From positions 1 to 35,241 of IMG/VR virus record IMGVR_UViG_3300023257_000067: a stretch of DNA of 35,241 bases, one strand, 5' to 3'. The notes under the pieces are model-generated. The model made no database searches and had not been told where the DNA came from. It saw only the letters and a list, made by a program, of their open reading frames with translations. The first letter of the stretch is position 1, and the number at the start of each line of letters is the position of its first letter. This stretch comes from a virus. A program made the translations under genes and the position numbers. Shown one piece after another: positions 7,450 through 20,559 of the stretch.

Positions 7450-7485
7450 ATATAAATAATTAACTTTCTTTATAATTATTTATAT
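7450..7485 (-). promoter_or_regulatory. Hairpin next to the HNH ribosome site
   Basis: Perfect 13-bp stem (7485-7473 with 7462-7450), 10-nt loop, ending at the base next to GGAGG (7449-7445). Homing endonuclease genes of T4 are often held down by early-transcript hairpins at the ribosome site, so translational control is likely here. Confidence 0.6.
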
Positions 7486-7508
7486 AAAAGTTCGTAAAAT
7501 TATATTTT

Positions 7509-7599
7509 TGGCTCCAGCGGTTGGATTCGAACCAACGGTGAGACATTAAAGTCTGACGGGTTAACAGCCCGTTCCCTGCTGCCGCTCGGGTACACTGGA
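7509..7599 (-). tRNA. Type II tRNA with GTT (Asn) anticodon
   Basis: 91 nt. Acceptor TCCAGTG/CGCTGGA, D arm CCC..GGG with GAGCGGCAGCA loop, anticodon stem ACGGG/CCCGT with loop CTGTTAA (GTT), then a long variable arm with its own stem AGAC/GTCT, T arm TTGG TTCGAAT CCAA, discriminator G, encoded CCA. Long variable arms belong to Ser, Leu and Tyr tRNAs; G73 and the body are Ser-like, yet the anticodon reads Asn codons. The amino acid attached is therefore uncertain. Confidence 0.85.
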
Positions 7600-7619
7600 A
7601 TATTTCTTATTGTTCTTAT

Positions 7620-7648
7620 AAAGTATCATATATAAAATATTATGTCAA
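7620..7648 (-). promoter_or_regulatory. Early sigma70 promoter, extended -10
   Basis: TTGACA (7648-7643), 17 nt, TGA-TACTTT (7625-7620). Reads into the type II tRNA and the HNH gene. It is part of a roughly 50-bp imperfect direct repeat with 7691-7742. Confidence 0.83.
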
Positions 7649-7665
7649 GACTAATTTATAATGTA

Positions 7666-7691
7666 TGCTTAGCCAATTAAGCTACACCAGA
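7666..7691 (-). pseudogene. 5' half of a broken tRNA-Asn
   Basis: Acceptor strand TCTGGTG (7691-7685), then TA and a complete D arm GCTTAATTGGCTAAGC. After A26 the sequence no longer pairs with anything (TACATTATAAATT) and runs into the next promoter. The acceptor strand is exactly complementary to CACCAGA of the 3' half at 6767-6808. Confidence 0.72.
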
Positions 7692-7711
7692 ATATTTCTT
7701 ATTGTTTTTAT

Positions 7712-7740
7712 AAAGTATCATATATTTTGTACTATGTCAA
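7712..7740 (-). promoter_or_regulatory. Early sigma70 promoter, extended -10
   Basis: TTGACA-type -35 (7740-7735), 17 nt, TGA-TACTTT (7717-7712). The original promoter of the now broken tRNA-Asn. Confidence 0.83.
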
Positions 7741-7773
7741 GAACAAAATATTTGTAATAATATTAAATAATTA

Positions 7774-7850
7774 TGGTAGGGGGGGATGCCAGAATCAAAC
7801 TGGCCACACCACGAATCCAAATCGCAGTCGACATCTTGCCATTATCCCCT
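7774..7850 (-). tRNA. tRNA-Pro (TGG) with expanded C tract in acceptor
   Basis: Anticodon stem TGCGA/TCGTG with canonical loop TTTGGAT, T arm GCCAG TTTGATT CTGGC, encoded CCA. The 5' strand AGGGGAT would pair perfectly with ATCCCCT, but the 3' strand has seven C in place of four, so three bases are extra. Either a slippage mutation that damages the acceptor stem or a homopolymer sequencing error. Confidence 0.7.
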
Positions 7851-7860
7851 ATATTTTTTA

Positions 7861-7934
7861 TGGTGGGACCAGAAGGTAACGATCCTTCGTAGATCGGGTA
7901 AGAACCGACTATTCTACCATTGAATTATGATCCC
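7861..7934 (-). tRNA. tRNA-Lys (CTT)
   Basis: Acceptor GGGATCA/TGGTCCC, anticodon stem GTCGG/CCGAT with loop TTCTTAC, T stem GAAGG/CCTTC, encoded CCA. The T loop is ATCGTTA instead of TTCGANT. Confidence 0.87.
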
Positions 7935-7937
7935 TAG

Positions 7938-8011
7938 TGGTGGGTCCAGAAGGTAACGCTCCTTCATCTACTGGTTAAAAGCCAGTTGTTCTGCTATTGA
8001 ACTATGAACCC
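7938..8011 (-). tRNA. tRNA-Lys (TTT)
   Basis: Acceptor GGGTTCA/TGGACCC, anticodon stem ACTGG/CCAGT with loop CTTTTAA, T stem GAAGG/CCTTC with unusual T loop AGCGTTA, encoded CCA. Shares the odd T loop with the neighbouring tRNA-Lys (CTT), suggesting duplication. Confidence 0.9.
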
Positions 8012-8020
8012 ACAAAACAA

Positions 8021-8058
8021 AAAAGGTGAAGATACTTTATATGTATTCTTCACCTTTT
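8021..8058 (-). terminator. Intrinsic terminator
   Basis: Stem AAAAGGTGAAG/CTTCACCTTTT plus ATAC/GTAT with one bulged base, 7-nt loop, followed on the minus strand by TTTTTTGTTTTG. It lies between the 25-residue ORF and the Lys tRNAs. No promoter follows, so the tRNAs may come from readthrough. Confidence 0.75.
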
Positions 8059-8085
8059 AATATTAGTATATTTTATATTAAATGA

Positions 8086-8163
8086 TTAGAATACAGTTGC
8101 TCCTTGTGGTATAAGTACCTTGTGTTTAAATATATTATTATTCGGTTTTAATATTTTCATCAT
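8086..8163 (-). CDS. Possible 25-residue peptide
   Basis: MMKILKPNNNIFKHKVLIPQ, ending GATVF. The ribosome site is weak (AGAGA). The hydrophobic C-terminus and placement between a gene and a terminator make a real short gene plausible, but there is little else to support it. Confidence 0.4.
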   Translation of the reverse strand: MMKILKPNNNIFKHKVLIPQGATVF

Positions 8164-8184
8164 TTTTTTATTCTCTCAATCTAT

Positions 8185-8418
8185 TTATATTTTATCATTT
8201 GTTTTTAAAATAATATCTTCAATATTAATTAATTTCATATTAACATGTTTCTGTATCCATTCATTACCTGTTAATTGTTTAGGCATGTTATTTTGAATAT
8301 ATTTATCATCATAATAACAATCATGTTTTATTGAATCAGATATTTGCTGAATCATAAAATCTTTTAATTTTATATGGTCTGATGTTGGTGGTTGCCATTC
8401 ATTTGCTTTTTTAAGCAT
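8185..8418 (-). CDS. Unknown protein (77 aa or slightly longer)
   Basis: The frame is open from 8670, but its upstream part crosses a tRNA gene and another gene, so I start it at the first Met after the tRNA (MLKKANEWQPPTSDHIKLKD). A TTG at 8439 (LLIKYQY) is an alternative. Mostly helical, with a C-terminal segment NEWIQKHVNMKL. Family not recognised. Confidence 0.5.
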   Translation of the reverse strand: MLKKANEWQPPTSDHIKLKDFMIQQISDSIKHDCYYDDKYIQNNMPKQLTGNEWIQKHVNMKLINIEDIILKTNDKI

Positions 8419-8475
8419 ATACTGATATTTAATAAGCAAATCTTTATTCTTTTTTATTCTTTCTTTTGTTGTTAA

Positions 8476-8548
8476 TGGATGCGGAGGGCGGAATCGGACC
8501 GCCGTATTATGGCTTATGAAACCAAATGGTTTTCCAAAACTCTCCGCA
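8476..8548 (-). tRNA. tRNA with CAT anticodon (Met or Ile2)
   Basis: Acceptor TGCGGAG/CTCCGCA, T arm GGCGG TCCGATT CCGCC, discriminator T, encoded CCA, anticodon loop TTCATAA. The D arm GTTTTGGAAAAC leaves a very small loop. Lacks the C1xA72 mismatch of initiators; could be elongator Met or a lysidine-modified Ile tRNA. Confidence 0.75.
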
Positions 8549-8551
8549 TTA

Positions 8552-8737
8552 TCACCATCCAATAGCTTTTGAAATCTCTGGTGTAAATCCACCAAGCTCA
8601 TTAAATCTTTTTTCAAATACTCTATAAAACGGTTTTGTTTTATCAAAATATGGATGACCTGATGGAGCAAATCTCCATAAAGAAGCCATTTGCATTTGAG
8701 TCATATTGTTTATTGTTTCTATTTCTTTATCGGTCAT
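8552..8737 (-). CDS. Conserved small phage protein (MASLWRFAPSGHPYF)
   Basis: A 61-residue protein with the conserved core QMASLWRFAPSGHPYFD and the C-terminus GGFTPEISKAIGW, a set seen in many unnamed phage and prophage ORFs. Starts at 8737 behind AAAGGATATT. Its stop lies 4 nt from the 5' end of the CAT tRNA. Function unknown. Confidence 0.75.
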   Translation of the reverse strand: MTDKEIETINNMTQMQMASLWRFAPSGHPYFDKTKPFYRVFEKRFNELGGFTPEISKAIGW

Positions 8738-8757
8738 AATATCCTTTTAATAATTTA

Positions 8758-8831
8758 TGGTAGGGATAAAAGAAATCGAATCTTTATTACAGCGTTATCG
8801 GCACTGTGTTCTACCATTGAACTATATCCCC
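8758..8831 (-). tRNA. tRNA-Ile (GAT), C33
   Basis: Acceptor GGGGATA/TATCCCT, D arm GTTCAATGGTAGAAC, anticodon stem CAGTG/CGCTG with loop CCGATAA, T loop TTCGATT, encoded CCA. As in tRNA-Ile (TAT), base 33 is C. Confidence 0.83.
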
Positions 8832-8835
8832 TCAT

Positions 8836-9141
8836 TTAAGCTAATTCTGGATCATTTACTATATCGTATTTAGGACATTTTATATTTTTATTAATTATAA
8901 TATAATCGTTATTAGATATTTTGTCAAATGTTTTATTTCTTAATTTATTATCATCAAATGTCCATTCTTCATCACAACCTTTAAATTGTATTGTTGGTTT
9001 ATCTTCATTAGAAGGCAACCATTTATATCTTTCTTTACTAATAGAAACACATAAATTAATATTAACAGGATTATTATATATTTTATCTCCATTAATATCC
9101 TGTACCCATGAAATAGGAGGTCTAATAAAATTACTGTTCAT
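8836..9141 (-). CDS. Unknown protein (101 aa)
   Basis: Starts MNSNFIRPPISWVQDINGDK, overlapping the stop of the upstream gene in another frame (AATGAACAGTAA). Contains a Trp/Lys strand region (RYKWLPSNEDKPTIQFKG, then CDEEWTFDD) and a Lys/Asn-rich end. No family recognised; its tight coupling to the 9131-9499 gene suggests a shared role. Confidence 0.65.
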   Translation of the reverse strand: MNSNFIRPPISWVQDINGDKIYNNPVNINLCVSISKERYKWLPSNEDKPTIQFKGCDEEWTFDDNKLRNKTFDKISNNDYIIINKNIKCPKYDIVNDPELA

Positions 9142-9499
9142 TTTTATCCTCTATTATGTTAAATTTATTTTTAGCTTCTTCTAATGCTTGAATAAATCCT
9201 GTTATATGCTCTTTATCATTAAATAATATATCAGCCTGCATTTCAAGATAACCGCCAAATATTAATACAATACCATCTCTTAATCGTTCCCAAATTCTTT
9301 TATACCAAGAACTTGCATTATAATAATTGTTCCAATATAATTTCTTTTCAATCATCATAGTAATATCATTTATTTCTCTATCATATTCTAACCATAACGT
9401 AAAATCATGATCTTGATCACCACATGCACACGCTATTCTATAAAATATAGTATCATGGTATTCATCCATTTTCATTACTTTATAAGATAATTTATTCAT
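9131..9499 (-). CDS. Conserved protein with CACGDQDHDFTLWLEYD core
   Basis: A 122-residue protein, started at 9499 (MNKLSYKVMKMDEYHDTIFY); the longer frame to 9634 overlaps a real gene. The signature FYRIACACGDQDHDF, WLEYDREI, a Trp-rich middle (SSWYKRIWERLRDG) and a C-terminal helix with ITGFIQALEEAK are typical of a widespread unnamed phage/bacterial family. A cysteine/histidine pair may bind metal. Function unknown. Confidence 0.72.
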   Translation of the reverse strand: MNKLSYKVMKMDEYHDTIFYRIACACGDQDHDFTLWLEYDREINDITMMIEKKLYWNNYYNASSWYKRIWERLRDGIVLIFGGYLEMQADILFNDKEHITGFIQALEEAKNKFNIIEDKNEQ

Positions 9500-9500
9500 T

Positions 9501-9665
9501 TTAATCTTTAACCTTTTTATTATAAAATTTTTTTCTTTTTTTCTTTTTTTCTTTTTGCACAATAGTATAATATTCATAACATTTAACATATTCACCACCA
9601 TGAGTTTCTCTGCAAATACCTTCACATTTACCATTATCTACTGAACACAATTCTTTTATTTCCAT
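9501..9665 (-). CDS. Small Cys- and Lys-rich protein (54 aa)
   Basis: ATG at 9665 behind AAAGGAGAATA. Starts MEIKELCSVDNGKCEGICRE, with four Cys in the first 30 residues, then an almost pure Lys/Arg tract and the end YNKKVKD. The stop is one base before the start of the 9131-9499 gene, so they are coupled. A metal-binding knuckle with a nucleic-acid-binding tail is likely, by composition only. Confidence 0.65.
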   Translation of the reverse strand: MEIKELCSVDNGKCEGICRETHGGEYVKCYEYYTIVQKEKKKKRKKFYNKKVKD

Positions 9666-9674
9666 TATTCTCCT

Positions 9675-10040
9675 TTATACAATTATTAAATTATCCGATC
9701 CATATTTATATCTATAATATTTTTTTATTGTATCTTCAGTACCGCCTGTTCTATCTGGTGAAACGCATGCTATTAATATATCTGACATTTTTGCTATATC
9801 AGTATTTCTTTTATACCCTGCTGATATTCCATTTTTAGTCCACAGAGCAGGATACCATATAGTTTTGGTGTTATATTGTTCTGATAATATCACAGCAAAT
9901 CTATCAGCACCTTTAGAACATAATCCAGAACATATAGTATCACCTTTTTGATAAACTTTTAGAAAAGCATTTTTAACACTTTCAAATGATATACTATCAT
10001 CTCTTTTTCTTGATCCAACAATACCAATTACTTTAGACAT
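9675..10040 (-). CDS. SLOG/DprA-like nucleotide-binding protein
   Basis: A 121-residue Rossmann-type protein with the marks of the DUF2493/SLOG group: IGIVGSRKR at the N-terminus, ICSGLCSKGADRFA in the middle, YKRNTDIAKMSDILIAC and SPDRTGGTEDTI. Relatives bind nucleotides or nucleic acid; in phages they are unnamed and sometimes linked to nucleotide signalling. It follows a decayed small ORF and the promoter at 10151-10179. Confidence 0.75.
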   Translation of the reverse strand: MSKVIGIVGSRKRDDSISFESVKNAFLKVYQKGDTICSGLCSKGADRFAVILSEQYNTKTIWYPALWTKNGISAGYKRNTDIAKMSDILIACVSPDRTGGTEDTIKKYYRYKYGSDNLIIV

Positions 10041-10042
10041 TT

Positions 10043-10143
10043 TTTTATTTATCCTTTTTGGTTGCGGTGCAGCAGGCGATATAGGTTTACGTTTTAAATT
10101 CTTTTTGTTCTAATGCAATATTCCTTTGTATGACCACCCTCAT
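10043..10143 (-). pseudogene. Decayed small gene before the SLOG gene
   Basis: Between promoter and SLOG start three frames each carry protein-like stretches: MRVVIQRNIALEQKEFKT, GGHTKEYCIRTKRI and LKRKPISPAAPQPKRINKK, the last in frame with the SLOG ATG. This fits one short gene with frameshifts. GGH..C recalls the small Cys/Lys protein at 9501-9665. Confidence 0.3.
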
Positions 10144-10150
10144 TGTTTAT

Positions 10151-10179
10151 AAGGTATCATAAAAATTATATCATGTCAA
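10151..10179 (-). promoter_or_regulatory. Early sigma70 promoter, extended -10
   Basis: TTGACA (10179-10174), 17 nt, TGA-TACCTT (10156-10151). Drives the SLOG gene and those after it. Confidence 0.8.
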
Positions 10180-10195
10180 GATAAAAATAAGATTT

Positions 10196-10269
10196 TGGAG
10201 CTGAGTATGAGAATTGAACTCATATCATGTGATTGGCAACCACATATACTACCATTGTACTAACCCAGC
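10196..10269 (-). tRNA. tRNA-Gly (GCC)
   Basis: Acceptor GCTGGGT/ACTCAGC, anticodon stem TGTGG/TCACA with loop TTGCCAA, T arm ATGAG TTCAATT CTCAT, discriminator T as in Gly tRNAs, encoded CCA. Confidence 0.92.
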
Positions 10270-10270
10270 A

Positions 10271-10342
10271 TGGTGGCATGTCAGGGTATCGAGCCCTGCA
10301 TTCCTCAGATATGAACCGAAAATGGTGCCCAGACCCCATGCC
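10271..10342 (-). tRNA. tRNA-Met (CAT)
   Basis: Acceptor GGCATG/CATGCC (6 bp, then G-A), anticodon stem TTCGG/CTGAG with loop TTCATAT, T arm CAGGG CTCGATA CCCTG, discriminator A, encoded CCA. The D arm GGT CTGGGC ACC is short. Second CAT tRNA of the window; one of the two may be the AUA-reading Ile type. Confidence 0.8.
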
Positions 10343-10346
10343 ATAA

Positions 10347-10553
10347 TTAACTTTTTTTCTTTTTTATCACCTTATTTTTATCACCATATATAACCCATCC
10401 TAAAAGAAAAGCAAATGGACCAATACAAGATATAATAATAGCTAATATTCTATTTTTTGATGTAAAATCAAACTCTTTTGTCCACCAATAAACAAAACTT
10501 TGATATCCAGATGCAAACCATAAAAATACTAATAAAAAAAATAAAAATAACAT
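10347..10553 (-). CDS. Small phage membrane protein (68 aa)
   Basis: Starts MLFLFFLLVFLWFASGYQSF behind AAAGGAGATAAT. Two membrane helices flank the polar segment YWWTKEFDFTSKNR; the second (IIISCIGPFAFLLGWVIYGD) ends in a Lys-rich tail. The FASGYQSF and WTKEFDFT elements are familiar from unnamed phage membrane ORFs. Inner-membrane location likely. Confidence 0.72.
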   Translation of the reverse strand: MLFLFFLLVFLWFASGYQSFVYWWTKEFDFTSKNRILAIIISCIGPFAFLLGWVIYGDKNKVIKKKKS

Positions 10554-10569
10554 ATTATCTCCTTTCTTT

Positions 10570-10598
10570 AATATACTATAAAATTTATATTATGTCAA
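10570..10598 (-). promoter_or_regulatory. Sigma70 promoter
   Basis: TTGACA (10598-10593), 17 nt, TATATT (10575-10570). Drives the membrane protein gene at 10347-10553 and the Met and Gly tRNAs. Confidence 0.75.
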
Positions 10599-10609
10599 TA
10601 AATATTTTT

Positions 10610-10687
10610 TGGAACCCCTGATGGGACTCGAACCCACATTAAATCTCGCTTTAGAAGAACGATGCCAATCCATTCGGCTACAGGGGC
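10610..10687 (-). tRNA. tRNA-Arg (TCT)
   Basis: Acceptor GCCCCTG/CAGGGGT (G-T at pair 1), anticodon stem TCGTT/AGCGA with loop CTTCTAA, T arm GTGGG TTCGAGT CCCAT, encoded CCA. Reads AGA, a common Arg codon in these genes. Overlaps the 3' end of the upstream CDS by 10 nt. Confidence 0.9.
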
Positions 10688-10893
10688 TTAATACTTTGAT
10701 TAAAAATATCTTTAAGTGCATCTATTGCTTTTGTTGTAATCATATAAGTTGTTTTTTTACCATCTATATATCCTATAATAGATATTATAACAGCACATCC
10801 TGATATATATAATATGTTCAATAATGAAAGATCACATAATATACAGTTTATTAATATTGATGTTAATAGTAAAGAAATTATTATTTTATACAT
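10678..10893 (-). CDS. Small membrane protein (71 aa)
   Basis: Starts MYKIIISLLLTSILINCILC behind AAAGGATAAAA. Two hydrophobic helices (residues 1-20 and 25-45), then GYIDGKKTTYM and an amphipathic C-terminal helix. The stop codon TAG is bases 8-10 of the tRNA-Arg gene, the same arrangement as at tRNA-Ala. Function unknown. Confidence 0.65.
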   Translation of the reverse strand: MYKIIISLLLTSILINCILCDLSLLNILYISGCAVIISIIGYIDGKKTTYMITTKAIDALKDIFNQSIKPL

Positions 10894-10905
10894 TTTTATC
10901 CTTTA

Positions 10906-10991
10906 TGGAGGTAGGGATGGGATTTGAACCCATAGGGCTATTACACCCGACTGATTAGCAATCAGCTCCGATACCATTCTGGCACCCTACC
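10906..10991 (-). tRNA. tRNA-Ser (GCT)
   Basis: Type II. Acceptor GGTAGGG/CCCTACC, anticodon stem GCTGA/TCAGT with loop TTGCTAA, long variable arm GGGTGTAATAGCCC, T arm ATGGG TTCAAAT CCCAT, encoded CCA. The discriminator is T rather than the G usual for Ser. Confidence 0.9.
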
Positions 10992-10994
10992 ATA

Positions 10995-11288
10995 TTATTT
11001 TATTTGACCTATAACACTATCACCTTTAAGACCAACAGGCTCATATATTGAAAATCCTAAAAAATAAACAGGTGCAACAATAGACTCACTAAATATAATA
11101 CTTAATACTATATTACCTGTAATTAATTCATATTGAATATCAGAGTTCTTTTTATCTGATTTATTAATTAAGCCGTAAGTATCATATTCTATACCATTAA
11201 TTACTTTGGTATCACCACATCCTGTAATAGATAAGAATGTACACACAAACATTAAGCATACTACAAATAATATAATTTTTTTAAACAT
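10995..11288 (-). CDS. Phage lipoprotein
   Basis: A 97-residue protein with a signal peptide (KK then 16 hydrophobic residues) and a lipobox SITGC at residues 20-24, so a membrane-anchored lipoprotein is expected. The mature part CGDTKVINGIEYDTYGLINK and a C-terminal hydrophobic segment (IIFSESIVAPVYFLGFSIYE) match an unnamed lipoprotein family seen in phages and Gram-negative bacteria. Good site AAAGGAGAATAAG. Confidence 0.78.
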   Translation of the reverse strand: MFKKIILFVVCLMFVCTFLSITGCGDTKVINGIEYDTYGLINKSDKKNSDIQYELITGNIVLSIIFSESIVAPVYFLGFSIYEPVGLKGDSVIGQIK

Positions 11289-11311
11289 CTTATTCTCCTT
11301 TTAATTTTAAA

Positions 11312-11385
11312 TGGCGGATTGCCAAGGAATTGAACCCTGATCATCTGGATTGGAGTCAGATATACTACCATTGTACTAACAATCC
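11312..11385 (-). tRNA. tRNA-Trp (CCA)
   Basis: Acceptor GGATTGT/GCAATCC, anticodon loop CTCCAAT (stem TCTG/CAGA with an A-C mismatch next to the loop), T loop TTCAATT, discriminator G as in tRNA-Trp, encoded CCA. Confidence 0.88.
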
Positions 11386-11388
11386 ATG

Positions 11389-11476
11389 TGGTGGGAATGG
11401 AAGGAATCAAACCTTCTTGATCGCTAAGGATACGAGATTTACAATCTCGCCAATCTTCATAACTGTCTACACTCCC
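11389..11476 (-). tRNA. tRNA-Tyr (GTA)
   Basis: Type II. Acceptor GGGAGTG/CATTCCC, anticodon stem CGAGA/TCTCG with loop TTGTAAA, long variable arm, T arm GAAGG TTTGATT CCTTC, discriminator A, encoded CCA. Confidence 0.92.
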
Positions 11477-11481
11477 AAATT

Positions 11482-11664
11482 TTATTTTCTAACTTTTGTC
11501 CATTGTGGAACACTATATCCTATAAGTATCTGTTTTTCATATCCATTCTCAAATGCTGCTTTATTAATTTTTAAAGTAACATTTGAAACCATAAAAGTTA
11601 AAACGCATATGCCAAATATTATATAAAATATTGTATAAGTCCAAAATCTATCATGTGAATCCAT
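11482..11664 (-). CDS. Small membrane-anchored protein (60 aa)
   Basis: Starts MDSHDRFWTYTIFYIIFGIC, one membrane helix (residues 8-27), then KAAFENGYEKQ and the end YSVPQWTKVRK. The FENGY..Q...W.K tail is typical of an unnamed single-helix family in phages and bacteria. Begins after AAAAAAGGAAAA; just 5 nt upstream of tRNA-Tyr. Confidence 0.68.
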   Translation of the reverse strand: MDSHDRFWTYTIFYIIFGICVLTFMVSNVTLKINKAAFENGYEKQILIGYSVPQWTKVRK

Positions 11665-11697
11665 TTTATTTTTCCTTTTTTATTTTATTTTATTTAT

Positions 11698-11726
11698 ACT
11701 TTATACTTTATATTATATAATGTCAA
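11698..11726 (-). promoter_or_regulatory. Sigma70 promoter
   Basis: TTGACA (11726-11721), 17 nt, TAAAGT (11703-11698). Weaker -10 than its relatives. Precedes the gene at 11482-11664 and the Tyr/Trp tRNAs. Confidence 0.65.
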
Positions 11727-11744
11727 CATAAATATTTTTATTTT

Positions 11745-11819
11745 TGGAGCCAGCAGAGTGGAATCGAACCCTCATTAAATGCTTACAAAACATTTTTATT
11801 ACCATTATAAGATACCGGC
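11745..11819 (-). tRNA. tRNA-Thr (TGT)
   Basis: Acceptor GCCGGTA/TGCTGGC, anticodon stem AATGT/GCATT with loop TTTGTAA, T loop TTCGATT, encoded CCA. Reads ACA. Short run to the promoter at 11830-11858. Confidence 0.9.
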
Positions 11820-11868: not shown

Positions 11869-11876
11869 TATAAATA
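11869..11876 (+). promoter_or_regulatory. Candidate T4-type late promoter
   Basis: Exact TATAAATA, 56 nt before the first gene of the packaging operon. In T4 this octamer is the gp55-dependent late promoter. In AT-rich DNA a chance match is possible; position supports it. Confidence 0.45.
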
Positions 11877-11931: not shown

Positions 11932-12396
11932 ATGACAAATAAATTATCAGAAGAATTTAATGTAACTAATATCATTGATGAAGATATCATAGAACATGTA
12001 ACACCACAAACAAATAATCCAGATAGTATTATAATGAACAATATAGATAATGCTAATACTGTATTAGATAAAATTATAACTGAATTAAATAGTGGTAATT
12101 TTTCAGCAAGATTAGCTGAAGTTGCTGGTCAACTTGTTAATGCTGTTACGACAGCGACAGAAAAAATCTATATGAAAGGGTTTAATATAGAAACTTTACA
12201 AATTAAAAAAAGTATGATACATTTAAAAGAAAGGGAATTAGAACTAAGAAAATTAATTAAAAATAGAGATAATAAAGAACCTAATGAAAAAATTATAGTA
12301 ACAGATAGAGAAACGATTTTAAAAATGTTGGAAAATAAAAAGGTCAAAAAATTAATAGATTGCACAAATGAAAGGAGTTTAGATAATGATGAATAA
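11932..12396 (+). CDS. Putative terminase small subunit (T4 gp16-like)
   Basis: A 154-residue helical protein. The central segment NSGNFSARLAEVAGQLVNAV, then TTATEKIYMKGFNIETLQIK, resembles in layout the core of T4 gp16 (an acidic N-terminus, then a helix pair around a conserved 'ARxxEVxxxLxxxxxxTxxxI' pattern). gp16-type rings bind DNA and regulate the gp17 motor. It heads the operon that contains terL, as in T4 where 16 precedes 17, but three kinase-module genes stand between. Similarity judged by eye, so moderate confidence. Its end overlaps the prkA start by 11 nt. Confidence 0.55.
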   Translation: MTNKLSEEFNVTNIIDEDIIEHVTPQTNNPDSIIMNNIDNANTVLDKIITELNSGNFSARLAEVAGQLVNAVTTATEKIYMKGFNIETLQIKKSMIHLKERELELRKLIKNRDNKEPNEKIIVTDRETILKMLENKKVKKLIDCTNERSLDNDE

Positions 12397-14320
12397 CGAC
12401 TTTAGACAAGTTATTTTGGATCAAAGAAAAAATGATATTAAAGAATTATGGCAAGGAAATTGTATTGATTATCTTTATAAGGTAAAAAAGAATCCTGAAA
12501 TATCACAATTATCAGCAGCAAGAATATATAATATTTTAGCATCACAGGGGTCATCAGATCTTGATGATACATTAAAAATTACTGGATATGAAGATTTGGT
12601 AAAATATGATTTCTTTGATAATAAGATTTTTGGTACTTATGAACCTATCCATGATATTATGAGATTTCTTAAAGCTTCTGCTCGTAGAACAGAAACAGGT
12701 AAAAGAATATTAATACTTGTTGGTCCTGTTGGTTCTGGAAAGAGTACAATAGCTAATCTAATTAAAAAGGGATTAGAAAACGATACTGTTCCTAAATATA
12801 CTATCAAAGGTTGTCCTATACATGAAGAACCTTTACATCTTATTCCTGAAAAGGATAGACCTTGGTGGGAAGATCAACTCAATATTAAAATTGAAGGTAC
12901 TTTATGTCCTGTATGTCAAATGAGATTAAAAAATGTTCGATGGGAAGATGTTGAAGTTGAGCAAATTAAATTCTCAGAACAACAAAGAACTGGTATTGGT
13001 ACATTTCAGCCAAGTGATCCAAAGTCTCAGGATGTTTCAGAACTTATTGGCAGAATTGATATGAGTAAAATGACACGTTATGGTGAAACTGATCCTAGGG
13101 CATATCAGTTTAATGGTGAACTACAAGTAGCTAATGGTGGTCTTATTGAATACATTGAAATCCTTAAAGCTGATATTAAATTTCATTATGTTTTAATTAC
13201 AGCTGCCCAGGAACAAGTTATTAAGGCACCGGGATTTCCACAGATGTATATTGATACACTCATTTTAGCACATACAAATCAAACTGAATATGATACATTT
13301 AAATCTGATAAGAAAAATGAGGCATTACATGATAGAATGTATCCAATAAAAGTGCCATGGAATCTTAAAATAGATGATGAAGTTAAAATCTATGAAAAAA
13401 TGATTGCAGAGAGTGATTTCAGAAATATTCATATAGCACCACATACATTGAAGATAGCTGCAGAATTTGCAATATTAACAAGACTTACACCATCAACAAA
13501 AGTATCATCACTTATTGAAAAGATGAAAATCTATAATGGTGAAATTACTGAATCTATGAGAAAAGAAGATGTTGATGTTAAATCTCTTAGATCAGAGGGT
13601 AAGGCTCAAGATGAAGGAATGTCAGGTATTTCACCAAGATTTATTATAAACGCTTTAAATATAGCTCTTGGTATGAAAGAGGACAAAAAATGTATAAATC
13701 CTATTGATATTATAAGAGCATTAATGTCAAATTTTAATCATCATATAGGTATCAGTACAGAAGATAAAGATAGATATATTGGAATGATTACAAGTGGTAA
13801 AGATTCTGTAAGTTCTGAATATAAAGACATTGCCAAAAAAGAAGTTAATAAAGCATTTTTGGAAGCATATGAAGAACAAGCTCAGTCTTTATTTGACAAT
13901 TATATCTTAAATGCAGAAGCGTTTTGTAAAAAAGATAAACTTATTGATTCAATAACAGGTGAATATAGTAATCCTGATGAAAAACTTATGCGACAAATTG
14001 AAGAATATATAGGAGTTCCTGTAAATTCTAAAAATACGTTTAGAAATGGTATCTTTGTATATAAAGCATCTAAACTTGAAAAAAATGAACCATTTACATT
14101 TAATGATTATGAACCATTAAAAGAAGCTATTGAAAAGAAATTAATATCAGACCTTAAAAATATAGTATCATTGACTATAGCTGATAAATCAAATGATAGT
14201 AAAAAAGTTAAAGCAAGACGAAAGAGTGCTATTAACAGACTTAAAAAGATGGGATATTGTGATGAATGTGCAAGTGTTCTTTTATCATTTGTCGGTGAAA
14301 CAATTAGACGTGAGGGATAA
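12386..14320 (+). CDS. prkA: PrkA-type AAA+ serine protein kinase
   Basis: A 644-residue protein, full length for the family (E. coli YeaG 644, B. subtilis PrkA 631). AAA-type Walker A GPVGSGKST at residues 113-121, then IKGCPIHEEPLHLIPE, GIGTFQPSDPKSQDVSELIG, DPRAYQFNGEL, ILAHTNQTEYDTF, KMIAESD..IHIAPHTLK, DEGMSGISPRF and the C-terminal kinase-like domain with NPDEKLMRQIEEYIG. It is closer to the Bacillus PrkA pattern than to YeaG. A CPIH...CPVC pair (about residues 145-180) may bind metal. In bacteria PrkA works with a DUF444 protein and SpoVR in starvation and stress responses, and both partners follow here. Starts at the first of two ATGs behind AAAGGAG. Confidence 0.93.
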   Translation: MMNNDFRQVILDQRKNDIKELWQGNCIDYLYKVKKNPEISQLSAARIYNILASQGSSDLDDTLKITGYEDLVKYDFFDNKIFGTYEPIHDIMRFLKASARRTETGKRILILVGPVGSGKSTIANLIKKGLENDTVPKYTIKGCPIHEEPLHLIPEKDRPWWEDQLNIKIEGTLCPVCQMRLKNVRWEDVEVEQIKFSEQQRTGIGTFQPSDPKSQDVSELIGRIDMSKMTRYGETDPRAYQFNGELQVANGGLIEYIEILKADIKFHYVLITAAQEQVIKAPGFPQMYIDTLILAHTNQTEYDTFKSDKKNEALHDRMYPIKVPWNLKIDDEVKIYEKMIAESDFRNIHIAPHTLKIAAEFAILTRLTPSTKVSSLIEKMKIYNGEITESMRKEDVDVKSLRSEGKAQDEGMSGISPRFIINALNIALGMKEDKKCINPIDIIRALMSNFNHHIGISTEDKDRYIGMITSGKDSVSSEYKDIAKKEVNKAFLEAYEEQAQSLFDNYILNAEAFCKKDKLIDSITGEYSNPDEKLMRQIEEYIGVPVNSKNTFRNGIFVYKASKLEKNEPFTFNDYEPLKEAIEKKLISDLKNIVSLTIADKSNDSKKVKARRKSAINRLKKMGYCDECASVLLSFVGETIRREG

Positions 14321-14622
14321 TTTTAAACAATTATGTAAACCACTTAACTTTGAGGATGCTATTAATAAAGGACAACTTTATAGAATAGCATTTTCAAAGG
14401 AAAATATAGATAAGTTAAAATTAATTTTAACTAAACTAAACTGTAAAAGAATTAAATTTAAAACCAACATGGAAATGTAAATGTGGTTGGAAATCAACAT
14501 GGTATATAAATAAAAATAAATTAACATTAAATCAATATATACCATTACTTGTAACAGATATGACTTCAAAAAATATTAAATGGTATTGTCCAAATTGTAA
14601 AAAAATTAACAGAATAGTTTAA
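14310..14622 (+). pseudogene. Zinc-ribbon gene with a frame break
   Basis: Frame 1, from a possible GTG at 14310, reads NFKQLCKPLNFEDAINKGQL, then YRIAFSKENIDKLKLILTKL, and stops at 14480. A second frame, open from about 14440, reads LKPTWKCKCGWKSTWYINKN and ends WYCPNCKKINRIV at 14622, a clear two-knuckle zinc ribbon but without a start codon. A shift near AACTGTAAAAG would join them into one protein of about 100 residues. Pseudogene, sequencing error or programmed shift cannot be separated here. Confidence 0.5.
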
Positions 14623-14633
14623 AGGTTATAAAT

Positions 14634-14864
14634 TTGAAACTTATTGATAATATTAACAATTTTTTCAAAAAAAAATTCAGAATTGTTAATACAAATGATT
14701 TATTTAAAATTCAATCTAAAATGTGGTATGCCTCATGGGAAGATGAGGCATACCGTTTGAATGGTACTAATGTATTTAGTTTATATGAAAGTGATAGATG
14801 GCTTGATATTAGAGAAGTATATGAAAAATTATCTAACAATAGAATAACATATAATAAAGAGTAG
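14634..14864 (+). CDS. Unknown protein in the kinase operon (76 aa)
   Basis: Starts with TTG at 14634, 8 nt after AAAGG; no ATG fits. Basic amphipathic N-terminus (MKLIDNINNFFKKKFRIV), then an aromatic, acidic region (WYASWEDEAYRLNG, ESDRWLDIREVYEKL). Lies between prkA and the DUF444 gene; family not recognised. Confidence 0.55.
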   Translation: MKLIDNINNFFKKKFRIVNTNDLFKIQSKMWYASWEDEAYRLNGTNVFSLYESDRWLDIREVYEKLSNNRITYNKE

Positions 14865-14871
14865 GTATAAT

Positions 14872-16167
14872 ATGACAATAGTTCATCATGAAAATTGGGA
14901 TTTATCAAATAAAGGAAAAAAGGATATTGAAAGACATCAACAAAAAATTGATAATGTCATTCGTAAAAATATTAAGAATGTTATAGGTGAAGAAACTATA
15001 ATCACTAAAAGACATGGTAAAAAAATAAAAATTCCAATAAGAGGTCTTGAAGATTATAAGTTTATATATGGTTTTGATAATAAAAAATTAGGTGGTATAG
15101 GTCAAGGCAAAGGTAAAGAAGGTGATGTATTTAAAAAATATCCTGTTAATAATGGGCCTGGTAATATAGATGGCTCTGATTATATTGAAACAGAAATTGA
15201 TATTAATTATATAATAGATTTAATGTTTGAGGATTTAGGATTACCATATATTGAAGAAAGAACTAAAATTGAGCAAGTAATTCCAAAAGGTTGGAAATTT
15301 AATTCTATAACTAAAACTGGTATTAAATCAAGAATACATAAACATAAAACATTAAAAGAATCAATTAAAAGAACTTTGATGTATGTTAAAGAAATTATTA
15401 GTGAAACTGGATGTACTGAAGATATTGCTAATAAAGCTCTTATACAATCTAAAGGTGATTTAGATAAAGCTATTAATATTGTTAATAATAATGAAGTGTG
15501 TGATGATATACAAGATATGATTTTTATTGAAGATGATGATTTAAGATATAAACAGATAGAAGAAGATGTTGAATATCATAGTAATGCAGTTGTTATCGCG
15601 ATGATTGATACATCAGGGTCTATGGACATTAATAAAAAATATCTTGCTCGATCTATGTTGTTTTGGCTTACCGAATTTCTTAAAAAGACTTATAAACATG
15701 TTAATATTAAATTCATTACACATACAACTGATGCTAAGGTAGTTGATGAAGAAGTATTTTTTAAAAAAGGTGAATCGGGTGGGACTAACTGTCATACAGC
15801 ATTTGATTTAGCTGACCATCTTATAGAAACTGAATTTCCTGTTAATGAATGGAATGTCTATTGCGTATATGTAGGTGATGGTGAAGATTGGGAATCTGAA
15901 AAAACAATAAATTCTGTTAATAAACTTCTTAACAGAAAAATAAATATGTTAGCTTATTGTGAAACCAATCCTGATGATATAGGTGGATATCCATCATATA
16001 GAACTTTATTAGATAGTTTTAGAAATCGTTTTAATTTCAAAATAAGAACTGAAAATGGTAATAATTATTATAAAAATGATAAAAAACATTTTTTGGCATG
16101 TAGGATTGATAAGAAAGAGGATATATATCCTTGTTTAAAACATATTTTATTTACAAAGGATCAATAA
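14872..16167 (+). CDS. DUF444 (YhbH/YeaH) von Willebrand-type protein with UBA-like insert
   Basis: 431 residues. The N-terminal half has the family pattern (NWDLSNKGKKDIERHQQKI, KIKIPIRGLEDYKF, GIGQGKG, DYIETEIDI), and the C-terminal half is a vWA domain with MIDAS motif DTSGS (residues 246-250), FITHTTDAKVVDEE, KKGESGGTNC and a glycine/aspartate-rich strand GDGEDW. Bacterial YhbH is partner and substrate context of PrkA. Compared with YhbH, residues about 171-207 (VKEIISETGCTEDIANKALI then QSKGDLDKAINIVNN) look like an inserted UBA/TS-N three-helix unit. Its stop overlaps the spoVR start (TAATG). Confidence 0.9.
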   Translation: MTIVHHENWDLSNKGKKDIERHQQKIDNVIRKNIKNVIGEETIITKRHGKKIKIPIRGLEDYKFIYGFDNKKLGGIGQGKGKEGDVFKKYPVNNGPGNIDGSDYIETEIDINYIIDLMFEDLGLPYIEERTKIEQVIPKGWKFNSITKTGIKSRIHKHKTLKESIKRTLMYVKEIISETGCTEDIANKALIQSKGDLDKAINIVNNNEVCDDIQDMIFIEDDDLRYKQIEEDVEYHSNAVVIAMIDTSGSMDINKKYLARSMLFWLTEFLKKTYKHVNIKFITHTTDAKVVDEEVFFKKGESGGTNCHTAFDLADHLIETEFPVNEWNVYCVYVGDGEDWESEKTINSVNKLLNRKINMLAYCETNPDDIGGYPSYRTLLDSFRNRFNFKIRTENGNNYYKNDKKHFLACRIDKKEDIYPCLKHILFTKDQ

Positions 16168-17645
16168 TGAATAAATCAGATTTACATAGACTTATAAAAA
16201 TAGAAGACCGTATTAAAGAAATTATGGTACAAAAAGGCTTAAAATTTGATGAAGTTGAATTTGATATTGTACCGCCAAAAAAGATGATTGAAATAATGGC
16301 GTATAATTCACCATCTAATATAAGTAACTGGAAATTTGGCAGAAATTATGAAAGACTTAAAACTATTTATGATAACGTATCATCACATAGTTTACCATAT
16401 GAGGTTGTAATTAATTCAGATCCACACAGAGCATATTTGATGAATAACAATACTTTAGCAGTTCAAGCTCTTGTAATATCACATGTTTATGGGCATGTTA
16501 ATTTTTTTACTGAAAATAATCTATTTAAAAATTCAAGGCGTGATATTATTAATATATTAAGTTCAGCCAATAAAAGATTTATAGAATATGAAAAACTTTA
16601 TGGTACTGATGATATTGAAAAAATTATAGATGCTGGTCATGCCTTACAATTACACACTAATATTTTTGATAATGATGAAACAGAAGATGAAAAAAGACTT
16701 AGAATTTATAATCATCAAAAAAAAATGGATAGACCTATCAGCTCTGAATTTAGTGATATCATTATAGATGATAAACATAATAAATATAACATAGAAGCAT
16801 ATAATAACAAGTTATGGAAAAGTCTTAAAGCTATATCACCTGTTGAACCTACAGAAGATATTTTAAGATTTGTTATAGATAATTCAAAGATATTAGATGA
16901 TTGGCAAAAAGATATTCTTGAAGTATTAAGAATAGAGGGTCAATACTATTGGCCTAATATAAAAACAAAATATATGAATGAAGGATATGCTGTATATACA
17001 CATGAACAGATTATGGACCAATTATTTAGAGAAGGTCATTTAACAGCATCTGAACATGGTCAATATAATTATAGTAATTCACTTGTAAAAGCTTTTAATA
17101 GAGAAACCATAAATCCTTATCTTATTGGTTCTGTAATGTGGTATGATATAAAGGATAGATGGGATAAAGGTCGGTATGGCAGTGATTGGAATGAATGTGA
17201 TAATGTAAAAGAAAGGGAATTATGGGACACCAAAGAAATGAATGGTGCTAAAAAAGTAGATGAAGTAATGCGATCATATATGGATTGGTTCTTTATGAAT
17301 GAATTTTTAACACCAGATATTATTGATAAATCAGATTTATATGTATATGAAATAATTCAGAAAAATCATTCAGTTGAATATGTTAGGACGGGTTATACAA
17401 TAGAAGAAGTACGGGAAATGATTATATCAAGTTTTGCTAATAAATCAATTCCAAAAATATCTATTATTGATAGTAATTATAATAAAAACGGTACTTTATT
17501 AATGAATCATAGTTTCAGTACCTTACCACTTAATAAAATATATGCTAAAGAAACAATGAAGCATATTAAAAATATTTGGGGTAGTGATATACATTTAAGA
17601 ACAAAAAATTCAGACGGTACAAAAGATGTGTTTTTAAAAATATAG
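16167..17645 (+). CDS. SpoVR family protein
   Basis: 492 residues, started at 16167 (AAAGGATCAATAATG) rather than at the in-frame ATG at 16131 inside the previous gene. SpoVR signatures: GLKFDEVEFDIVPPKKMIEI, the HVYGHVNFFTENNLF metal-like motif, NEGYAVYTHEQIM, and NPYLIGSVMWYDIKDRWDKG. B. subtilis SpoVR affects spore cortex formation and E. coli YcgB shares the YeaG-YeaH regulon; the biochemistry is unknown. Third member of the kinase module, directly before terL. Confidence 0.92.
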   Translation: MNKSDLHRLIKIEDRIKEIMVQKGLKFDEVEFDIVPPKKMIEIMAYNSPSNISNWKFGRNYERLKTIYDNVSSHSLPYEVVINSDPHRAYLMNNNTLAVQALVISHVYGHVNFFTENNLFKNSRRDIINILSSANKRFIEYEKLYGTDDIEKIIDAGHALQLHTNIFDNDETEDEKRLRIYNHQKKMDRPISSEFSDIIIDDKHNKYNIEAYNNKLWKSLKAISPVEPTEDILRFVIDNSKILDDWQKDILEVLRIEGQYYWPNIKTKYMNEGYAVYTHEQIMDQLFREGHLTASEHGQYNYSNSLVKAFNRETINPYLIGSVMWYDIKDRWDKGRYGSDWNECDNVKERELWDTKEMNGAKKVDEVMRSYMDWFFMNEFLTPDIIDKSDLYVYEIIQKNHSVEYVRTGYTIEEVREMIISSFANKSIPKISIIDSNYNKNGTLLMNHSFSTLPLNKIYAKETMKHIKNIWGSDIHLRTKNSDGTKDVFLKI

Positions 17646-17801: not shown

Positions 17802-17842
17802 AATTTATCCTCTTATTATATAAATATAGTAGAGGATAAATT
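17802..17842 (+). promoter_or_regulatory. Hairpin sequestering the terL ribosome site, late promoter in its loop
   Basis: AATTTATCCTCT (17802-17813) pairs perfectly with AGAGGATAAATT (17831-17842), which holds the terL Shine-Dalgarno and ends at the ATG. The loop contains exact TATAAATA (17819-17826), whose start point would fall near 17832. A transcript begun there lacks the 5' arm and is free for translation, while readthrough RNA is locked. T4 uses this layout for several late genes. Confidence 0.75.
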
Positions 17843-19387
17843 ATGTCAATTAAATATAATGAATTTGTTAAAAAGCCATTAGAAGAATATCAATATTCTA
17901 AAAATGAATTATTAGAGCTTAGTTCATGCTCTGATAATATAAAAATTTTTTACAAATATGTTAAGATAGTCCATCCAGATAAAGGTCTTATAACCTTTAA
18001 TCCCTATAATTTTCAGAAAAAAATCCTCAAAACTGTTGATCTTAATAGATTTACTGCTATATTATGCTCTCGCCAAGCCGGTAAAACTGTGGTAATGTCA
18101 GTTTATGCATTACATTATGCTATTTTTAACGCTGATAAGTATGTTGGTATCGTATCTAACAAACAAACATCTGCTATTGATATTTTATCCCGTATTAAAA
18201 GAATGTATGAAGAACTTCCTGTATGGATAAAACCTGGTGTAAAAGAATATAGTAAAACATTTATAGCGTTTGATAATGGTACTAAAATAACTGTATCAGC
18301 AACAAGTGCTGATGCTTTTAGAGGTAGAACACTTAACCTTTTAATTGCTGATGAATTAGCATTTGTTAGAAAGGGTATTGCAGAAGATTTTTGGGCTGCC
18401 AATTATCCTACTATATCAACATCTACTGAAGCAAAAATTATTATTATTAGTACACCGAATGGTATGTTCAATTTATTTCATAAACTTTATTCTGGTGCTG
18501 ATAGAAAAGAAAACACATTTATACCACTGAAATTTACATGGAGAGATGTACCAGGTAGAGATAAAAAATGGGCTGATGAGCAATTAAGAAATTTAGGTGA
18601 AACTAAATTTAAACAAGAGCAAGAAGTTGAATTTTTGGGTAGTGTTAGAACTGTTATAGATACTAACATATTAGAATCATTATATAATATGACTTTTGAA
18701 CCACTTCTAACTGATCTTGATGGTGCATTTAAGATACTTGAAAAACCAGAACTTAGTGCAACATATATTATTGGATGTGATGTAGCAAAAGGTACTGGTG
18801 AACATTCATCTACAATGCAAATATTAAAAGTACAGAGTGTTAAACCAGTTAAATGTAAACAAGTTGCTGTATTTGATAGTAATAAAATAGATGTTTATGG
18901 ATTTTCAGATATTATTAATAGGACATCTTATTATTATAATAATGCTTATATCATGTGTGAAAATAATGCAGAAGGTGCTGCTGTAGTGAATAGATTATGG
19001 TGGGATTTTGAAAATAGTAATCTAGTCAATTCTGGAAGTAAACGAAAAGATCTTGGTATACGAGCATCAAGAGCTTCTAAACCAAAAGCTGTATTATTAA
19101 TGAAAAGGCTTATAGAAGATGGTTCTATTGATATATTTGATATAGAAACTATAAATCAATTAGGAGCTTTTATTGAAAAAAATAAAAAGTATTTTGGTCA
19201 AGGATATCCTGATGATTTAGTATCTGGTCTTTATTGGGCATGCTATTTTTTTGAGATGAATATCTTAGAAGATGGTTTTGAATTAAGAAAAACAAAAAAA
19301 GAAGATGATGGGTGGGGAATACTATCTGATGTTGATACTAAAGAAGATTGGTCATGGGTTACTGATGGGTCTTCAATGGTTGGATAA
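17843..19387 (+). CDS. terL: Terminase large subunit (T4 gp17-like)
   Basis: 514 residues. Packaging ATPase with Walker A SRQAGKT (residues 76-82), Walker B LLIADE followed by coupling region, and SAT..STPNG motif IIISTPNGMFNLF. The C-terminal RNase H-type nuclease has GCDVAKG (first Asp), CENNAEGAA and YPDDLVSGLYWA (third acidic site). It cuts concatemers and drives DNA into the prohead through the portal. Slightly shorter than T4 gp17 (610). Expression is probably late, given the hairpin/late promoter at its start. Confidence 0.93.
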   Translation: MSIKYNEFVKKPLEEYQYSKNELLELSSCSDNIKIFYKYVKIVHPDKGLITFNPYNFQKKILKTVDLNRFTAILCSRQAGKTVVMSVYALHYAIFNADKYVGIVSNKQTSAIDILSRIKRMYEELPVWIKPGVKEYSKTFIAFDNGTKITVSATSADAFRGRTLNLLIADELAFVRKGIAEDFWAANYPTISTSTEAKIIIISTPNGMFNLFHKLYSGADRKENTFIPLKFTWRDVPGRDKKWADEQLRNLGETKFKQEQEVEFLGSVRTVIDTNILESLYNMTFEPLLTDLDGAFKILEKPELSATYIIGCDVAKGTGEHSSTMQILKVQSVKPVKCKQVAVFDSNKIDVYGFSDIINRTSYYYNNAYIMCENNAEGAAVVNRLWWDFENSNLVNSGSKRKDLGIRASRASKPKAVLLMKRLIEDGSIDIFDIETINQLGAFIEKNKKYFGQGYPDDLVSGLYWACYFFEMNILEDGFELRKTKKEDDGWGILSDVDTKEDWSWVTDGSSMVG

Positions 19388-19401: not shown

Positions 19402-20559
19402 ATGATTAAAAAAGAATGGAAAGAACTAACAGGGATTACTAATACTTTAGCACATGATTTATCCCTTGATGAAAAAATTAACATTGAAGATATGACTTGT
19501 AACGAATTAAAAATATTATATAAACATGATAATGGATTATTATATAATAATGCTTTCTTTAATGATAATACTAATATAGGATATGTTAATCCTAAAAAAA
19601 TAACTAAAAGTATTTTAACAGCTAATAATTTTGGTGGAAAAACATCTAAATGTAGAGTTAATTTTTATTATAACATGATACTTAAAAATAATATACTTGA
19701 TGGTGATTGGGATATAAAAGATATTATTAATATACCATCAATCAGTTATAAAAATAAGGAAGTAATAGCTTTAGAAAAAAGTATAAAAGAAATAGGATAT
19801 AAATCACAAAAAGAATTGGGTAAAAGTAAAAGTAATAGTGAAGTAGTTATAGCTATTGGTAGAAATGGTGAACTTTTACATGTTGATGGTATACATAGAT
19901 TACGAGTTGCAATAAAATATAATATTGAAAGAATACCTGTGATAATTGTTTTACGACATAAAAACTGGATACCAATAAAAGATGATATAATAAAAAACAT
20001 ACATAATTTAAAACGATCTATACTATATCAACCTATAACACATCCGGAATTTTCTGAATTTAAATCAGCTTATGATCATTATAGATATGATGTTATAAAG
20101 AAAAATTTAACATTAAAAAAAGGAACTCTTTTAGATATTGGATCATGTTATGGGTATTTCTGTAATAGATTTGAAGAATCTGGATTTAATTGTACTGCTG
20201 TTGAAAATAATAGTACTTTTGCTTATATGATAAATAAATTAAAAAATATAAATCAAAATACATTTAATATTATTGATCAGTCATTATTTAGCATGAAAGA
20301 AAAAAAATTCGATATTGTTTTAGGATTAAATGTGTATCAACATTTTATGAAAGGAAAATCAAAAATGAAACAATTTATAAATTATATCAAAACCTTAAAG
20401 GTAAAAGAACATTTTATACAAGTTCCTGAATATTTAAAAATAGAAGATTCAGATGATATAATGTCATTAGATTTTATTACTATGATTATAAAATACGGTA
20501 ATTTAAAAAACATGATTGAATTACCATCTAAAAGCAGAAAAATGTATAAATTATTCTAG
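19402..20559 (+). CDS. ParB-like domain fused to SAM methyltransferase
   Basis: 385 residues. A helical N-terminal part leads to a ParB/Srx-type core: EVVIAIGRNGELLHVDGIHR, where DGIHRL (162-167) is the typical nucleotide-binding loop. The second half is a class I methyltransferase: motif I LLDIGSCYGYF (243-253), an acidic residue after strand 2 (VENN), and FDIVLGLNVYQHF. The target is unknown. It interrupts the usual terL-to-neck gene order and looks like an added gene; it might modify DNA, RNA or protein during late infection. Confidence 0.78.
   Translation: MIKKEWKELTGITNTLAHDLSLDEKINIEDMTCNELKILYKHDNGLLYNNAFFNDNTNIGYVNPKKITKSILTANNFGGKTSKCRVNFYYNMILKNNILDGDWDIKDIINIPSISYKNKEVIALEKSIKEIGYKSQKELGKSKSNSEVVIAIGRNGELLHVDGIHRLRVAIKYNIERIPVIIVLRHKNWIPIKDDIIKNIHNLKRSILYQPITHPEFSEFKSAYDHYRYDVIKKNLTLKKGTLLDIGSCYGYFCNRFEESGFNCTAVENNSTFAYMINKLKNINQNTFNIIDQSLFSMKEKKFDIVLGLNVYQHFMKGKSKMKQFINYIKTLKVKEHFIQVPEYLKIEDSDDIMSLDFITMIIKYGNLKNMIELPSKSRKMYKLF

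Follow-up and report, generated by a model that had tools for sequence, protein, structure and literature searches.

A PrkA-DUF444-SpoVR gene trio between the terminase genes of an uncultured group of T4-like phages

PrkA, DUF444 and SpoVR are common across bacteria and are biochemically unsolved. The PrkA family owes its name to in vitro phosphorylation, and its status as a kinase is disputed. The bacterial loci prkA-yhbH-spoVR and yeaG-yeaH-ycgB encode the same three proteins as the locus described here, with the key residues conserved, and in many bacteria the gene order PrkA-DUF444-SpoVR is also the same. In nitrogen-starved E. coli, YeaG and YeaH jointly quiesce metabolism (PMC10954441). 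The function of E. coli YeaG requires Lys116 and Lys426 and is destroyed by the K426A substitution (PMC4664914). A yeaG mutant was treated as a kinase mutant in phosphoproteomics (PMC8055822), whereas neither kinase nor protease activity was detected for purified B. anthracis PrkA (PMC13001217).

All three genes are also carried by the Thermus phages phiYS40, TMA, MN1, phiLo, Lalka27a, Lalka27b and Lalka8, where they are annotated as serine kinase, SpoVR and vWA or conserved protein. Thermus phages, including phiYS40, are already available in culture. Unlike the present locus, they have the gene order DUF444-SpoVR-PrkA; their PrkA is about 30–37% identical to ours and forms a separate branch of the PrkA tree, and in the regions compared the trio does not lie between TerS and TerL, being beside terL in the Lalka phages. 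In the Ralstonia jumbo phage RsoM2USA, ORF28 (SpoVR) and ORF30 (PrkA) are close together at 21.9–26.7 kb of the 344-kb genome and have proteobacterial best matches (PMC8504454, Table 2); terminase linkage of the two genes is not stated in the part of that description considered here. No functional data on any phage trio were found in the literature.

The window (the whole stretch of viral DNA analysed, 35,241 nucleotides) carries the trio on the plus strand, flanked on the 5' side by a gp16-like small terminase subunit (TerS, 154 aa, 11932..12396) and on the 3' side by a gp17-like large subunit (TerL, 514 aa, 17843..19387; Pfam Terminase_6N and Terminase_6C), both on the same strand. The three genes encode, in this order, PrkA, an AAA+ ATPase with a helical C-terminal domain (644 aa, 12386..14320), a DUF444/YhbH/YeaH-type VWA protein with a DTSGS MIDAS motif (431 aa, 14872..16167) and SpoVR with its C-terminal domain (492 aa, 16167..17645). 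All are nearly full length according to Pfam: AAA_PrkA (PF08298; 1.1e-118, 396.8 bits) and PrkA_C (PF06798; 1.6e-71, 241.4 bits), each with a cut-off of 25; DUF444 (3.9e-87, 293.5 bits, residues 8–426); and SpoVR (4.4e-93, 312.6 bits) and SpoVR_C (1.1e-9, 38.6 bits), both over the cut-off. Chance or misannotation as the source of the trio is excluded by these matches. The DUF444 protein also matches TIGR02877 (8e-95, 318 bits), under the equivalog cut-off of 468 bits. The match of gp16 to the PHROG terS profile is weak (E 0.07), and its identity is confirmed by a clade profile of this gene, which finds the gene immediately 5' of gp17 in other T4-like phages. The nearest relatives of TerL in the phage collection are about 36% identical and belong mainly to cyanomyoviruses. 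The Pfam and gp16-profile matches bear out the original prediction of three intact, full-length genes arranged in this order between a gp16-like gene and terL. The overlap of gp16 and PrkA amounts to 11 bases, DUF444 and SpoVR have one base in common (TAATG, the SpoVR start codon being ATG at 16167 and not TTG at 16131), and PrkA and DUF444 are separated by 551 bases.

A motif search located the T4-type late promoter motif TATAAATA on the plus strand 5' of gp16 (11869..11876) and 5' of TerL (17819..17826). Among 35 dereplicated relatives the motif precedes gp16 in 14 (1.9 expected) and TerL in 23 (1.7 expected), and it was found 5' of PrkA, DUF444 or SpoVR in none of 114 cases; the contrast between gp16 and the trio genes is significant at p=1.4e-10. 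Since TATAAATA precedes gp16 and TerL and no gene of the trio, the trio is probably expressed as part of a gp16 late operon, the motif at 11869..11876 being the probable promoter of gp16-PrkA-DUF444-SpoVR. The trio is thus apparently turned on late in infection together with the packaging genes, in line with the late or packaging control proposed originally. A structured RNA was sought in the gap between SpoVR and TerL and was not found.

The order gp16-PrkA-DUF444-SpoVR-TerL was found in 60 distinct virus records, in which PrkA identity goes down to 56%; the search of phage genomes called for by the original prediction therefore revealed a conserved linkage. The dN/dS values are 0.02–0.19 for the pairs with measurable dS, and a T4-type portal was found in 11 of 15 records. 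Inteins, which usually mark conserved, important phage genes, interrupt all three trio proteins (PrkA, DUF444, SpoVR) in phages, and also TerL.

Retention of the trio between TerS and TerL could alternatively indicate a role in assembly, in which an AAA+/VWA machine would remodel terminase, portal or prohead proteins and would owe its position to this direct part in virion assembly or packaging. The fixed place between gp16 and gp17 and the predicted co-transcription with gp16 agree with such a role, as do the Thermus phages Lalka27a and Lalka8, with the trio between portal/minor head genes and terL, and YS40, with only two genes between the trio and terL. However, among the other records with both a trio and a recognised terL, most have the two far apart, so a position beside terL is not a general phage rule. 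T4-like phages outside the clade (L118–L128), in which gp16 and gp17 overlap, package without a trio here, and one contig assigned to the clade by its TerL (L114) has gp16 and TerL with no trio between them. A direct assembly or packaging role is therefore considered unlikely, and it is quite improbable that the UBA-containing AAA+/VWA/SpoVR machine is a working part of packaging or head assembly constituting a novel terminase-associated ATPase system.

The trees of PrkA, DUF444 and SpoVR are concordant: in each, the phage sequences form a single clade whose sister group is the same set of six bacteria, among them Spirochaetota and Thermodesulfobacteriota. Because all three trees record the same history, the trio is, on the phylogenetic evidence, a single acquisition that entered as a unit, as the original prediction of joint gain had it. 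The outcomes that would have spoken against the module, namely separate recent pickups of the three genes and decay in relatives, were looked for in the trees and synteny and did not appear. The proposed Bacillus-type character of PrkA and DUF444 has to be abandoned, as the AU test rejects both a grouping of the phage clade with Bacillota (p=3e-10) and such an origin of the trio. The alignment of DUF444 revealed a UBA/CUE-like insertion at about residues 170–208 (15379..15495, plus strand) common to the phage clade and the sister bacterial group only; its match to UBA_8 is 1.8e-6 in the sequence L149 (over the cut-off) and 0.016 in the window. Compared with bacterial trios, the window copy thus resides in a phage, between terminase genes and with phage late-promoter motifs, and represents a subtype with this insertion that is otherwise present in six sampled bacteria only. 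At the sequence level the genes are intact, share one origin, keep their order among relatives, are under purifying selection and lie behind a late-promoter motif; judged by this, the trio is a stable, selected part of an uncultured T4-like phage group and not a recent acquisition.

The Walker A motif of PrkA read from the translation (GPVGSGKS, residues 113–120, 12722..12745, plus strand) contains Gly113, Pro114, Val115, Lys119 and Ser120, all invariant in an alignment of 61 sequences. Lys119 is the equivalent of YeaG Lys116 and is kept in all aligned rows, and further near-invariant AAA+ positions are also retained. The sequence matches the solved PrkA structure 9xip (E 1.9e-118), for which no paper was found. 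The AlphaFold2 model of PrkA (pLDDT 87) has a helical C-terminal half; rows from the phage collection were left out of the alignments used for the structure models. Foldseek matched the model to Lon, NtrX, BchI, NorQ (including the NorQ-NorD VWA complex) and CbbQ; BchI, NorQ and CbbQ rank near the top of the list (E about 1e-5), and Lon and NtrX score slightly better. In NorQ-NorD, CbbQ-CbbO and BchI-BchD an AAA+ motor has a MIDAS/VWA partner, which resembles the putative pairing of PrkA with DUF444. PrkA differs from AAA+ proteins of the MoxR/BchI class by a long insert and by a helical C-terminal domain of its own, and no complex of PrkA with DUF444 was found.

The system was originally described as a kinase system, in which PrkA would be a genuine Ser/Thr protein kinase acting on host or virion proteins. 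The in vitro phosphorylation behind the family name, the phosphoproteomics of the yeaG mutant (PMC8055822) and the loss of YeaG function in K426A (PMC4664914) are in favor of this assignment. However, the position of YeaG Lys426 is occupied by Asn422 in the window PrkA, and among 24 clade members checked it is Asn in 23 and Asp in one; the protein departs from YeaG at both Arg232 and Lys426, two residues reported as needed. Purified B. anthracis PrkA was without detectable kinase activity (PMC13001217), and no kinase fold is present among the 50 listed Foldseek matches of the PrkA model with its helical C-terminal half. As AAA+ matches lead that list, the absence of a kinase is a weak negative. 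With Asn at the functional Lys and an AAA+ fold whose matches include BchI, NorQ and CbbQ, the label "kinase" appears weak and doubtful, and genuine kinase action is very improbable.

In SpoVR, His106, His110, Glu151, Glu272 and His279 are invariant in the alignments. Its AlphaFold2 model (pLDDT 92) gave nothing significant in a Foldseek search of the PDB; with a best E of 0.058 (TM 0.08) the listed fold matches carry no meaning, and a sequence search of the PDB gave no match.

The reading that we prefer, tentatively and at somewhat less than an even chance, is that the trio forms a MoxR-like AAA+/VWA machine with SpoVR, acquired once, controlled as a phage late function and imposing or maintaining a starvation-type host state. 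A T4-like lineage would have taken up once the whole operon of a rare subtype with the UBA-like insertion in DUF444, now present in a few Spirochaetota, Thermodesulfobacteriota and other bacteria. The operon would have become fixed between TerS and TerL, and late transcription from the gp16 promoter would put it beyond the host's own starvation regulators. Gene linkage and fold suggest that PrkA may form a MoxR/BchI-like ring with DUF444 as its VWA/MIDAS adaptor, like NorD for NorQ and CbbO for CbbQ, and that SpoVR with its invariant His/His/Glu/Glu/His set may be the client or effector. Run late, the machine would keep the host starvation-like, quiescent and viable during virion production, similarly to the "metabolic brake" reported for YeaG/YeaH; that phenotype comes from E. 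coli YeaG, and the identity between one enterobacterial YeaG and the PrkA of the window is only about 28%. That the trio holds cells in a productive state, as first proposed, is plausible.

Alternatively, the trio might interfere with the host trio as a decoy or dominant-negative version, or counter a defence based on dormancy or stress, so that the infected cell would stay metabolically active. Host trios do function in quiescence (PMC10954441) and the phage copies look free of host control, but all catalytic-type residues are kept in the trio proteins, so a dead decoy fits poorly, and late expression is late for counter-defence. A search with defence-system profiles matched nothing beyond a marginal P-loop, and the trio was rejected as a defence-system member. 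Such interference is improbable.

The proposed starvation-type machine, if true, would tie quiescence of this kind to late phage infection in slow-growing hosts. A phage lineage in which all three genes have stayed linked despite deep divergence, under strong purifying selection and with the late-promoter pattern described above, is independent evidence that they form one working unit, and the phage trio offers a natural minimal system for reconstitution.

Two small reading frames between PrkA and DUF444, originally suggested as extra parts of the module, are confined to close relatives and hence are not conserved module parts. The first is the remnant of a zinc-ribbon ORF (14193..14480, plus strand), and the second is a 76-aa ORF (14634..14864, plus strand) present in the closest relatives only. 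The zinc-ribbon frame is interrupted in the window by a 5-base difference and is open in near-identical relatives.

PrkA (12386-14320), DUF444 (14872-16167; VWA-type, carrying a MIDAS motif) and SpoVR (16167-17645, with the Pfam-matched frame open from 16131) are each recognized by Pfam at nearly full length in the window, an IMG/VR virus record of 35,241 bases. The ATG start codon of SpoVR at 16167 has one base in common with the DUF444 stop. TerL (17843-19387, Pfam) lies downstream of the trio. The gene at 11932-12396 has a weak PHROG terS match, and a profile of this gene together with its relatives matches the gene immediately 5' of gp17 in other T4-like phages, in which gp16 and gp17 overlap. 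The gene is therefore assigned as gp16 (TerS), and the trio thus sits between the terminase subunit genes, as was originally predicted. T4-type portal genes are present in 11 of 15 related records. The gene 3' of TerL (19402-20559, plus strand) has a methyltransferase domain joined to an N-terminal part that by eye is ParB-like; in the clade of related uncultured phages, the more distant members were not found to carry this gene.

Relatives were collected by scanning IMG/VR twice with PrkA and once with TerL, and their PrkA is 56-100% identical to that of the window. The order gp16-PrkA-DUF444-SpoVR-TerL on a single strand was found at 68 loci, or 60 distinct records (some near-identical to one another) after removal of same-contig repeats, so the linkage is conserved. 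Intergenic gaps in this order have a small median and some contain additional genes. The remaining loci are mostly truncated at contig ends, the exceptions being L061 and L063, where no terminase gene lies within reach of the trio, and L114. The latter, a whole 4.8-kb contig, has gp16 and a clade TerL (54% identical) with no trio between them; the interval is occupied by two opposite-strand genes, one lipoprotein-like and one for a probable nucleotide kinase. The dN/dS values for PrkA, DUF444 and SpoVR are 0.02-0.19 in pairs with measurable dS. LAGLIDADG inteins interrupt PrkA (loci L034, L035, L038, L040 and L085, at two sites near window residues 214 and 289), SpoVR (L040 and L084) or DUF444 (L061) of several relatives, as well as TerL of L087. 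Since inteins prefer conserved, important phage genes, their presence indirectly supports the importance of the trio.

The T4 late-promoter motif TATAAATA occurs 63 bases 5' of the gp16 start and 24 bases 5' of the TerL start. It is not enriched across the window (17 found vs 21 expected), and therefore individual sites prove nothing. The motif was then counted within 150 bases upstream of genes in 38 dereplicated relatives, with expectations from dinucleotide shuffles. It precedes gp16 in 14/35 relatives (1.9 expected) and TerL in 23/35 (1.7 expected), and none of the 114 regions upstream of PrkA, DUF444 or SpoVR contains it (Fisher p 1.4e-10); an earlier test over all loci agrees. This pattern fits the proposed packaging/late control, and its simplest reading is that gp16-PrkA-DUF444-SpoVR would form a late operon, and that a separate late promoter would drive TerL.

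One tree was built per protein (66 rows each, 24 clade members sampled). All 24 members form one group in the three trees (SH-aLRT 99, 100 and 100), and its sister is in each case the same six bacteria, L149-L154 (SH-aLRT 100, 100 and 99); a careful PrkA tree gives 100/99 at both nodes. The trees are concordant, with no sign of separate pickups. The suggested resemblance to the Bacillus type did not hold, as grouping of the phages with Bacillota is rejected for PrkA (AU p 2.8e-10). In DUF444, the six bacteria share with the phage clade a UBA/CUE-like insertion of about 40 residues that all other groups aligned lack; Pfam detects it above cut-off in L149. Together, the concordant trees and this insertion argue that the trio came into the phage lineage a single time, as one unit. 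Its place within bacterial diversity suggests transfer from bacteria to phage, which a tree does not prove. The trio of L150 is flanked by chromosomal genes. The bacterial subtype is rare: matches of at least 66% identity occur in 2/247 genomes from the phylum of L151 and likewise 2/247 from that of L150, query genome included in both.

Trios are also found in Thermus phages, in huge uncultured phages and in YeaG-type loci of IMG/VR, some of which may be host DNA; a further case, from the literature, is RsoM2USA (PMC8504454). Many large IMG/VR contigs (L229-L308, viral_contigs) carry YeaG-type trios. Phage or phage-associated trios look far commoner than the literature found suggests. As sampled here, the PrkA tree requires no fewer than three changes between phage and bacteria, so the module was probably acquired by phages more than once. 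In other trio-bearing phages with an identified terL, a long distance usually separates that gene from the trio, the Lalka phages and YS40 being exceptions; in LR756502 about 245 kb lie between PrkA and the sole SpoVR match found. Among the phages examined, the terminase-flanked position was seen in the window's clade only. The module is a known host module with known occurrences in some phages; what is new is that a diverse clade of uncultured phages has it fixed between TerS and TerL, together with a T4 late-promoter pattern. No description of this arrangement in T4-like phages was found in the literature searched, which was mostly open-access.

PrkA retains Walker A and other near-invariant AAA+ positions. 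Its AlphaFold2 model (pLDDT 87) matches Lon, NtrX, BchI, CbbQ and NorQ, including NorQ-NorD VWA complexes. Several such AAA+ proteins operate with VWA partners, as the entry titles also indicate, and PrkA and the MIDAS-bearing VWA protein DUF444 may be a pair of this kind. In SpoVR, the invariant H106, H110, E151, E272 and H279 look, by sequence, like a metal site; the confident model (pLDDT 92) has no significant structural match in the PDB. The predicted kinase role is doubtful, because neither kinase nor protease activity was detectable for B. anthracis PrkA (PMC13001217) and YeaG K426, needed in E. coli (PMC4664914), is replaced by Asn in the window, as in 24/24 aligned cellular rows outside the YeaG type. 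The original observation of the trio stands, and its interpretation holds in part. Since E. coli YeaG and YeaH jointly quiesce metabolism under nitrogen starvation (PMC10954441), the phage-controlled trio might by analogy act late as a metabolic brake on the host, the least certain step.

Elsewhere in the window, family B DNA polymerase is encoded by two separate minus-strand ORFs (23281-24153 and 24399-26165) matching consecutive parts of a single phage polymerase profile; either the polymerase is split, or the two ORFs are separated by an insertion or a break in the frame. A DruA/DUF4338-like gene (27276-28388, minus strand; Pfam DruA 2e-21, PADLOC DruA 4e-20) sits amid phage replication genes, with no other Druantia parts identified. 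The region 687-11819 (minus strand) contains 18 tRNA genes, a tmRNA (tag ADDYNYALAA) and an RtcB-like RNA ligase, and for a fragment of only 35 kb this translation set is unusually large.
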